A DNA stretch of 64,000 nucleotides from Singulisphaera sp. GP187 (GTDB taxonomy: Bacteria > Planctomycetota > Planctomycetia > Isosphaerales > Isosphaeraceae): positions 2,457,501-2,521,500 of the forward strand of contig NZ_FSRB01000001.1 in NCBI RefSeq assembly GCF_900129635.1, written 5' to 3'. The position numbers were made by a program, and so were the translations under genes. The first letter of the stretch is position 1. The number at the start of each line of letters is the position of its first letter. Shown piece by piece: positions 46,296 to 57,383 of the stretch. The notes beneath the pieces are model-generated. The model ran no database searches, was not told the DNA's origin, and saw only the letters and a program-made list of their open reading frames with translations.

Positions 46296-46372
46296 AGGGC
46301 TTGCACATCATTCAATACAAAGAAAGACCCGGTCCACCCGCTTATCGCGGTTTGCCCTCGAGTGGCACACGT

Positions 46373-46456
46373 CTGGGTGGCTGGGGTCCGGACTCGGCCC
46401 CCGATCCAGATGTTGGCCGGCGCACCGGGGTCCGAGTCCGGCCCCCAGCCACCCAG
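46373..46456. repeat. Inverted-repeat element with about 31-bp arms
   Basis: Left arm 46373-46403 (starts CTGGGTGGCTGGGGTCCGGA) pairs with right arm 46426-46456 (ends GGCCCCCAGCCACCCAG when read as shown), with about two mismatches. The 22-bp loop would allow a very stable cruciform. It lies 77 bp from the other element, so two different palindromic repeats are stacked here. Confidence 0.75.
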
Positions 46457-46607
46457 AGCGCTCGAGCTGTGATCCCCGGCGTGTGCGACCGACCGGTTGG
46501 TTGGCAGTTCGGGAGTGTCCTCGTCGCGATAACGGGCGGCTCGCGACGAGTGAGGACGTGGGAGCCCGGACGGTGAGGGCCGTTTCGGGCTCCCTGGCGG
46601 TGGCCGA

Positions 46608-54824: not shown

Positions 54825-55644
54825 GGCTTGATTCTCGCTCTGAACGATCGGTGACGATGAGAAATCCCCGGTGTGTTGCCTCATGGAACCAGGTTACCAG
54901 AGGATTCACATCCAAGGGGCGGCACCATGCCGCCCTGTCTTCCCTCCGGGATTAATACGAATGCGGATTGAACTCGACTTCGGTAGCGTGGCGGACAGAC
55001 TGACTGACCCCGAAATAACTGGGATTGAAAGCCACACCGGATTCGGCGATGATCTCCACCAGTGCTCGCATCCCGTTCTGAATCATGGAGGATCAGATGT
55101 CAACGGCAGGCCCCCCCCGCCCTTTCGCTGTCTTGTTGAAAATAGCGGCCCTCTGGCTCGCGATCGGTCACACCACGGCGGCCAATGCCGATCCGATCTG
55201 GTACCAGTTCGCGGGCACGATCACCTCGGTCGACGCATCGACCGGCATCAGTCAAGGTTCCCAGTTCACTGGCACCTTCTCATTCGACGCTGCGGTGGCG
55301 CCAACTGATTTCATGGGGTCGGACGCCTTGTACACTCATCCGTACTCGCCGCCTCATTCCGGTGGTCCGGGGATGACCCTCTCGGTCGGGGGCCAAAAGC
55401 TTCTGGATCATCCCGCTCTCCTTGTGTCCAGCGCTCCCAATCCTGCTTCACCGACGAAGCTAACCATCACCGAGCCGGGCTTTGGCTGGGTCAATGGGAG
55501 AGCGTTCCACACGGACCTCGAATTGGTGAACCCTACGGGTGTCGTTTACGGCATGTTCGGACCGACGTCCATGCTGAGCCTTGCAAACTTCTCAGAGGCA
55601 AAGCTTAAGCGTACTGTCACACAAACCCTGTTGGAATCCGTCAC

Positions 55645-56232
55645 CTAATTCTTGTGGGTATGGCTTCGGGGCCCTTCGAGATAGGAGATTCGAATGAACC
55701 GGTCAGAACGACGGTTTCGTGCTTGCAAATGGCTGCTGATCCGCCTTTTGGTCGCCTGTTGATCTGGGTCGTTGGTCGTGTCCAGGACATTCTGTTGGAT
55801 GTCGCTGAAGATCGTTTCACACGGATTGTCGTCCGGGCTTCGCTTTGGCAGGCTGGTCCATTGCAGCCCCAATCGTCGCATCATCGCACGGGTCGCTCGG
55901 GCCTTGATCGGGTGGGCCGGATCCCGATCCAGGGCCAACCGCAGGAGGCGTCCGGGATACCATCGCCGGATTCGCCGCAGGAATTGGCAGACGTACTTCG
56001 CCCCCTTGCCCGGGTAGAAGGCCCAATGGACACGGCCGTGGTTCACGTCATAGAGCAAAAACAGGTAGAACCGACCGCGGATCTTTTGGTTGCGCTGCAA
56101 GACCAGGCGCTTGGCCGTGGTGTAACATCGTCCGCCGTACGCCTTGACGGTGATCGGCTGGACGTCGAAGAACGCCAAGACGGCCCGACGGGGTCGGTGT
56201 TGCCACCACACTCTCAACCGATGCAAAATCAC
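55645..56232 (-). CDS. IS630 transposase, catalytic DDE half (second frame)
   Basis: 195 residues from a GTG, holding the DDE integrase-like catalytic domain. Candidate catalytic residues are D in AFFDVQPITV, D in LALDRDPAHP, and E in SPDDNPCETIFSDIQ. The true N-terminus is probably supplied by the upstream frame through a -1 frameshift. Upstream in the same phase the sequence reads RRIRRKLFSTDPNRRVILHR, which is protein-like before the GTG. It overlaps the first frame by four bases (GTGA). Confidence 0.88.
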   Translation of the reverse strand: MILHRLRVWWQHRPRRAVLAFFDVQPITVKAYGGRCYTTAKRLVLQRNQKIRGRFYLFLLYDVNHGRVHWAFYPGKGAKYVCQFLRRIRRWYPGRLLRLALDRDPAHPIKARATRAMMRRLGLQWTSLPKRSPDDNPCETIFSDIQQNVLDTTNDPDQQATKRRISSHLQARNRRSDRFIRISYLEGPRSHTHKN

Positions 56233-56717
56233 ACGCCGATTCGGGTCGGTGCTGAAGAGTTTGCGGCGGATGCGGCGAAATGTATACCCCCCTTTTTGAG
56301 CACCCGACGAAGGTGCTCACGGCTGATCGACTTGACGATTTTCTCTCGGATCAGGACGTCACGCAACTTGGCCAGGGTCCAGCGGCCGAACGGCAACCCG
56401 AGGGTCGTGGGCGATTGGCCGGCCAGGCGCCAAACGGCCGCGATTTGCTCTTGGGACAGGTGTGGAGGAGCGCCGACGGTGCGCGGTCGGCTCAGAGAGG
56501 ACAGGCCGTGCTGCGCGAAGTCGCGGAGATCGGCATATACGGTGTTGACATGGACATGGAGCAACCGGGCGATCGCGGTGGCGGAAAGATCGGCGGAGCG
56601 AAGCAAGAGCACCTCCGCGCGACGACGCTGCCAAGGTCGTAGAGGCTTCTCAAGCCATTGATGGACCCGGCGGAGTTCGGCCGGGGTCGGTTTCCGTGCT
56701 GTCAGAGGACGTGACAT
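56229..56717 (-). CDS. IS630 transposase, helix-turn-helix half (first frame)
   Basis: 162 residues with the DNA-binding part of the transposase. RRRAEVLLLRSADLSATAIA, then LLHVHVNTVYADLRDF, form the first helix-turn-helix, and SREHLRRVLKKGG ends the second winged part. A run A5G6 (on the + strand C6T5 at 56287-56297) lies in LKKGG. Slipping back one base there continues into the DDE frame. The residues after that point in this frame (IHFAASAANSS and on) are therefore probably not the main product. Confidence 0.88.
   Translation of the reverse strand: MSRPLTARKPTPAELRRVHQWLEKPLRPWQRRRAEVLLLRSADLSATAIARLLHVHVNTVYADLRDFAQHGLSSLSRPRTVGAPPHLSQEQIAAVWRLAGQSPTTLGLPFGRWTLAKLRDVLIREKIVKSISREHLRRVLKKGGIHFAASAANSSAPTRIGV
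56287..56297 (-). promoter_or_regulatory. Probable -1 ribosomal frameshift site in the IS630 transposase
   Basis: The - strand sequence CTC AAA AAG GGG GGT can slip to give AAA AAG GGG GGG TAT ACA TTT, fusing the helix-turn-helix and DDE frames. A-G homopolymer slippery sites are typical of IS630 elements. Whether slippage is ribosomal or transcriptional cannot be told. Confidence 0.6.
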
Positions 56718-56964
56718 GGTGGAACCTCCGCTCTGGGTGGACCACCAACCATTCTAACAAAACAGGCGACAAGAATTCCGACAGGGATTCTGTGACGCTA
56801 CGCTTAAGGTCACGGACCCGAACAACGCCCAGGTCTTGTTCGCGGGCACAATTACGAGCTTGACGGCGACGACGGTTCCCGAGCCCGCGTCGGCGACCCT
56901 GGTCTGTCTCGTCACTGTGGGTTGGCTGGCGCATTTCCGTCGCCGTCAGAAGCGATCCGACTAA

Positions 56965-57383
56965 GTCCATCGGAAATCGCACAACCCTGCGGCGGTCACG
57001 GCAGCCATCCTCACTCTGGATCGTCACGCTATCGCAACACTGGCCCCGTCGCTCCGCATAATCGCGGGCCGGCGGGGCATGTCTATGCGCGGTGTCGCAC
57101 CTCGCATGGACACACAACCCCCTAAATTCGACGGATCGTCCGGCCGCCCCTGATTGCTGTGGGATAGGGCCGCCACTTCGCCTCGTCTCACTGAGTGCCC
57201 CCGAACCCCTTCGGCCCGACACGCTAGCCAGAGAGGGGCGGCCTTGACAGACGCCACCGCGAGCATCATCCGTTGCGTTGTGAGTCGTGGGAGTCGCATG
57301 CGGAGCGGCCCTCGAAGGCGAATGTCGTTCATTTGGGCTCTGGCGGTTCGGGAGCGACAGGGAGCCAGAGATGCTCTGATGAT
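56965..57383. other. Intergenic stretch downstream of the interrupted PEP-CTERM gene
   Basis: 419 bp. Frames on both strands are open but not protein-like. No repeat or RNA gene was noticed. Confidence 0.4.

Follow-up and report, generated by a model that had tools for sequence, protein, structure and literature searches.

A recently active insertion sequence of the IS630 family appears to have entered a CTTAAG site within a PEP-CTERM gene of Singulisphaera sp. GP187, duplicating the TA dinucleotide and costing the gene its sorting tail at little apparent expense to the host; we regard it as very probable that this accounts for the whole locus. The gene lies in the analysed window, a 64-kb stretch of the genome (10.69 Mb in 5 contigs, all of which was searched). 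The event is ordinary in kind, the element being a new insertion sequence of a known family and the host gene being of a known kind. Less ordinary are the apparent CTTAAG preference of the element, its isolated position and the multiple independent lesions found in a small gene family.

The element, delimited by copy search and profile match, occupies 1197 bp on the minus strand (window positions 55608–56804); a second, identical copy exists elsewhere in the genome. A TA dinucleotide bounds it on the left (55606–55607, inside CTTAAG) and another on the right (56805–56806), which bears out the TA flanks reported in the original prediction; between positions 55600 and 56810 the sequence reads GCAAAGCT-TA-AGCGTACTGTCACA at the left boundary and TGTGACGCTACGCT-TA-AGGTCACGG at the right. 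The terminal repeats claimed at the same time were also recovered by end comparison, with 27 of 34 positions agreeing between the left inverted repeat (55608–55641, plus strand) and the right one (56771–56804, minus strand), and with a 20-mer pair (16/20) that is the best match at a 1197-bp spacing anywhere in the 64-kb window. Deleting the element together with one TA makes the flanks read GCA AAG CTT AAG GTC ACG GAC in one open frame without a stop, and this frame can be aligned through the junction with a paralogue that is not interrupted, in agreement with the in-frame joining described earlier. The sequence itself shows the insertion.

Two overlapping frames on the minus strand of the element encode the transposase. 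ORF A, taken from the ORF list (56229–56717, 162 aa), matched the helix-turn-helix domains HTH_23, HTH_29 and HTH_32 in profile searches, and the open frame of ORF B (55645–56316) carries a DDE_3 catalytic domain. A −1 shift at an A5G6 run (AAAAAGGGGGG; 56287–56297, minus strand) fuses the two frames (KKGG|YTFRR) into a 357-aa protein, which matches the IS630 family transposase model NF033545 over residues 32–334 (139 bits; cut-off 100), thereby sustaining the IS630 assignment, and PF13358 DDE_3 at 31.3 bits (cut-off 28.6). The putative catalytic residues of the joined protein are D185, D264 and E301, with 36 residues between the last two. The joined reading is supported by relatives in Streptomyces, which run full length in a single frame with up to 29.5% identity over residues 1–335. 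The element resembles the IS630/Tc1-mariner family (for example, ISY100 of Synechocystis and the Streptomyces IS630 transposases) in its HTH-plus-DDE transposase, TA flanks, terminal inverted repeats and length of ~1.2 kb, and frameshifted members also exist in the family. It differs in the apparent CTTAAG(G) preference, the presence of just two copies and the 36-residue spacing from the second D to E, and stands apart from its relatives, with a best identity of ~30% in Streptomyces.

Ribosomal frameshifting or transcript slippage by −1 on A5G6 would yield the full transposase, as in IS630 members that use either process (PMC5009743), and the sequence is compatible with a programmed −1 frameshift that makes an active enzyme. 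That the split instead reflects decay or a homopolymer assembly error, with programmed frameshifting playing no part, is a tenable if somewhat improbable alternative: the shift position falls inside a homopolymeric run, related transposases are single-frame, and the RNA fold downstream, rejected as a candidate frameshift stimulator, is not unusually stable (z −1.1, not significant). Against it, frameshifting is documented in the family, the frames of ORF A and ORF B overlap with all catalytic residues retained, and the identical split occurs in both copies of the element, implying that the split was already there when one gave rise to the other or a common source gave rise to both. The frame losses in the transposase and in the paralogue, both at homopolymers, might be assembly errors.

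More distant IS630-type transposases are plentiful, with the same 441-aa frame at ~12 places in the Singulisphaera sp. GP187 genome and one 365-aa frame at ~10 places in S. acidiphila; their abundance in both genomes indicates that the IS630 family is busy in the genus Singulisphaera.

The original prediction had called the insertion recent and the element possibly still mobile, and had proposed a genome-wide search for further copies. This search returned exactly one, at C4:2924606–2925802, which is 100% identical over 1197 bases and lies in unrelated flanks, as a recent and perhaps continuing activity would have it. Outside CTTA on the left and TAAGG on the right the two loci no longer resemble each other, which indicates transposition and excludes segmental duplication. 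The C4 copy interrupts a frame that measures 386 codons from the stop before it and contains a PD-(D/E)XK nuclease domain (PF12705, 47.9 bits); this frame lies downstream of a UvrD-type helicase and becomes continuous again once the element and one TA are taken out. A genome scan for MITEs, solo ends and short derivatives found none, the only matching ends being the four that belong to the two copies, and weaker end matches were about as frequent as for a reversed control pattern. No transposase relatives were found at E ≤ 1e-20 among 392 Planctomycetota genomes, and the best-scoring match in 45 genomes of the taxonomic family reached 36% identity in the N-terminal part. The element DNA had no match in plasmids, and neither GTDB nor viral contigs yielded a close relative of the element when searched by peptide patterns. 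Given a single identical second copy, no near relatives in the phylum and no plasmid match, the element was probably acquired and moved recently; its movement would proceed by cut-and-paste.

The C4 region around the second copy (2916000–2934000) also encodes a HerA-type ATPase and a weak NurA-like protein beside the UvrD helicase and the split PD-(D/E)XK nuclease, together with a TGT/DpdA-like enzyme and DEAD-box helicases matching the HamB, BrxH and DpdF models. The cluster is a candidate defence island. No relative of the nuclease was found at E ≤ 1e-10 in the other searched genomes of the taxonomic family.

CTTAAGG was the target of both copies. Within the 64-kb window CTTAAG makes up 0.4% of TA sites, and the probability that two random TA sites agree at two flanking bases on each side is 0.007. 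These two sites only suggest that the target preference of the element reaches past TA, extending to CTTAAG(G). Since CTTAAG can be read at either side of each copy, the duplication may have been of TA, TTAA or CTTAAG (2, 4 or 6 bp); all three give the same empty site and are indistinguishable. TA is the target duplication of the IS630 family and is adopted here on that ground.

The interrupted gene is preceded by a conserved block (54989–55083, plus strand) that is ~80% identical ahead of the paralogue and of a remnant in S. acidiphila, and is a candidate promoter or 5′ leader with a sigma-70-like match, TTGAAA-17-GATGAT (55025–55053). The 5′ fragment (55085–55607, plus strand) was defined from the ORF list, the joined frame and the paralogue alignment. 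Its probable start is the ATG at 55097, preceded by a GGAGGA-like motif, from which the joined frame comprises 222 codons, the length given earlier; an in-frame ATG upstream at 55085 extends it to 226. The 3′ fragment (56807–56964, plus strand), identified by the joined frame and profile search, encodes the VPEP motif, hydrophobic helix, Arg-rich tail and stop, and is followed by a flank (56965–57090, plus strand) that DNA comparison shows to be conserved past the stop codon of the paralogue.

The joined protein begins with a hydrophobic N-terminus that by eye is signal-peptide-like (VLLKIAALWLAIGHTTAANA) and ends in a tail with VPEP, a hydrophobic stretch and RRR (VPEPASATLVCLVTVGWLAHFRRRQKRSD). 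Together with a short, putatively secreted body, these features resemble those of PEP-CTERM/exosortase (EpsH) substrates. The PEP-CTERM product proposed in the original prediction is thus recognizable in its architecture, but the tail alone (VPEPASATLVCLVTVGWLAHFRRRQ) falls just under the PF07589 cut-off of 20.7 bits, scoring 16.2 bits in the whole protein and 18.7 in the genome scan, and the body has no match over cut-off to any named PEP-CTERM subfamily. Searches of the genome gave three full exosortase matches (PF09721, 218–222 bits) plus a partial one, and 23 PEP-CTERM tails scored over cut-off; the sorting machinery is hence present.

The element now lies between the coding parts for the predicted signal peptide and body on one side and the sorting tail on the other. 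The frame of the 5′ fragment reads on into the element, gains RTVTQTLLESVT and stops at 55648, and at most a truncated secreted product of 183–187 residues with this foreign tail would be made. With the signal peptide and body cut off from the tail, the gene would no longer yield an exosortase substrate. The earlier description of a natural knockout therefore stands as regards the severed tail, but the loss may have cost little, as both closest loci are damaged.

One of these is an uninterrupted paralogue 490 kb away (C5:3002823–3003476), whose protein is 56% identical and aligned straight over the insertion point (LSLANFSEAKL|KVT in the window gene, LSLANFSEGIL|NVT in the paralogue) and whose tail exceeds the PF07589 cut-off (21.2 against 20.7 bits). 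DNA similarity between the two genes reaches into the 5′ leader and ~110 bases beyond the stop. In their alignment, the window gene has a run of eight C right after the start (55111–55118, plus strand) and the paralogue only seven (locus L014 6807–6840), which puts both paralogue ATGs that match the window starts out of frame. The paralogue may start at a TTG further in or contain a sequencing error, and the C8/C7 difference itself could represent phase variation, decay or an assembly error.

The other is a remnant in the congener S. acidiphila DSM 18658 (C1:5115429–5115686). Its upstream block and tail survive, whereas the body is missing and the frame is lost; the deletion extends from close to the start codon up to ~20 bases short of the insertion point, and the surroundings are non-syntenic over 17 kb. 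This locus was considered as the same split without the element and rejected, since the deletion is different and the setting non-syntenic, making it an independent lesion. An ancient excision was likewise rejected, the +1 base found there near the insertion point not being a TA-type excision scar.

More distant uninterrupted PEP-CTERM homologues occur in several other genera of the taxonomic family, those outside the genus being ~32–36% identical. No close intact orthologue was found in another species, so that no empty site in a true orthologue was seen, and a peptide-pattern search of GTDB contigs turned up nothing close to the gene. The searches proposed for the uninterrupted fused protein thus yielded the 56% identical paralogue and distant contiguous homologues, and no relative with the same split minus the element. 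The gene family appears small and lineage-restricted, with its two other closest loci damaged as well.

Because the paralogue (C7) and the S. acidiphila locus (body deletion) both look broken, the element probably struck a dispensable gene, and the insertion was probably near neutral. The damage to these two copies, with a dN/dS (NG86) between the window gene and the paralogue of just ~0.54 overall and 0.6 in mid-protein, indicating weak constraint, would also fit a gene that had become a pseudogene before the element inserted. We consider this unlikely: the window gene runs for 222 codons without a stop or frameshift and retains an in-frame ATG (C8) with its GGAGGA-like motif upstream, and the dN/dS is below 1 and lower (0.42–0.43) in the signal and tail regions. 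An insertion into an open but dispensable gene is the preferred reading.

The original prediction further held that exact excision restores the frame. On paper the joined frame is indeed open, but this is a reconstruction; the same would hold for every clean insertion into an ORF, and the joined frame shows only that the gene was open before the insertion. ISY100, a biochemically studied enzyme of the IS630 family, excises inexactly, cutting 2 nt inside the 5′ ends so that the rejoined donor reads TATATA (PMC2170065). By analogy, excision here would be expected to leave 4 extra nt and so shift the frame. A reversible switch, in which excision returns surface display in part of the population, would be in keeping with the clean junctions, which are without decay, and with the apparently recent activity of the element, but the expected 4-nt scar argues against it unless the element is lost through homologous recombination or slippage. 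The gene family, moreover, looks dispensable, and no empty copy of the site was seen in the assembly; such a switch is therefore extremely improbable. It is also very improbable that the PEP-CTERM genes of this lineage form a phase-variable surface family, in which the poly-C tract by the start (C8/C7) and the mobile element silence single copies; if they did, surface proteins would differ between cells.

The locus leaves the understanding of IS elements and of exosortase sorting unchanged. To Singulisphaera it adds an IS630 element with clear boundaries that is apparently active and may prefer CTTAAG sites, and it offers a naturally occurring loss-of-function allele of a gene for a predicted exosortase substrate. 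Its practical use lies in annotation and in a possible planctomycete transposon.

Two repeats were also noted. A 37-bp stretch ahead of the window gene (54930–54966) has four further occurrences in the genome with 84–86% identity, and a GC-rich inverted repeat starts just upstream of it; it is perhaps a shared terminator-like repeat. Elsewhere in the window, an imperfect palindrome of ~110 bp (46356–46466) that forms a very strong predicted hairpin (z −4.9) recurs at ~20 places in the genome (34 matches, both strands counted) and has 9 matches in S. acidiphila. These copies are REP- or MITE-like repeats, and one of them (C5:3002587–3002695) lies directly upstream of the PEP-CTERM paralogue.
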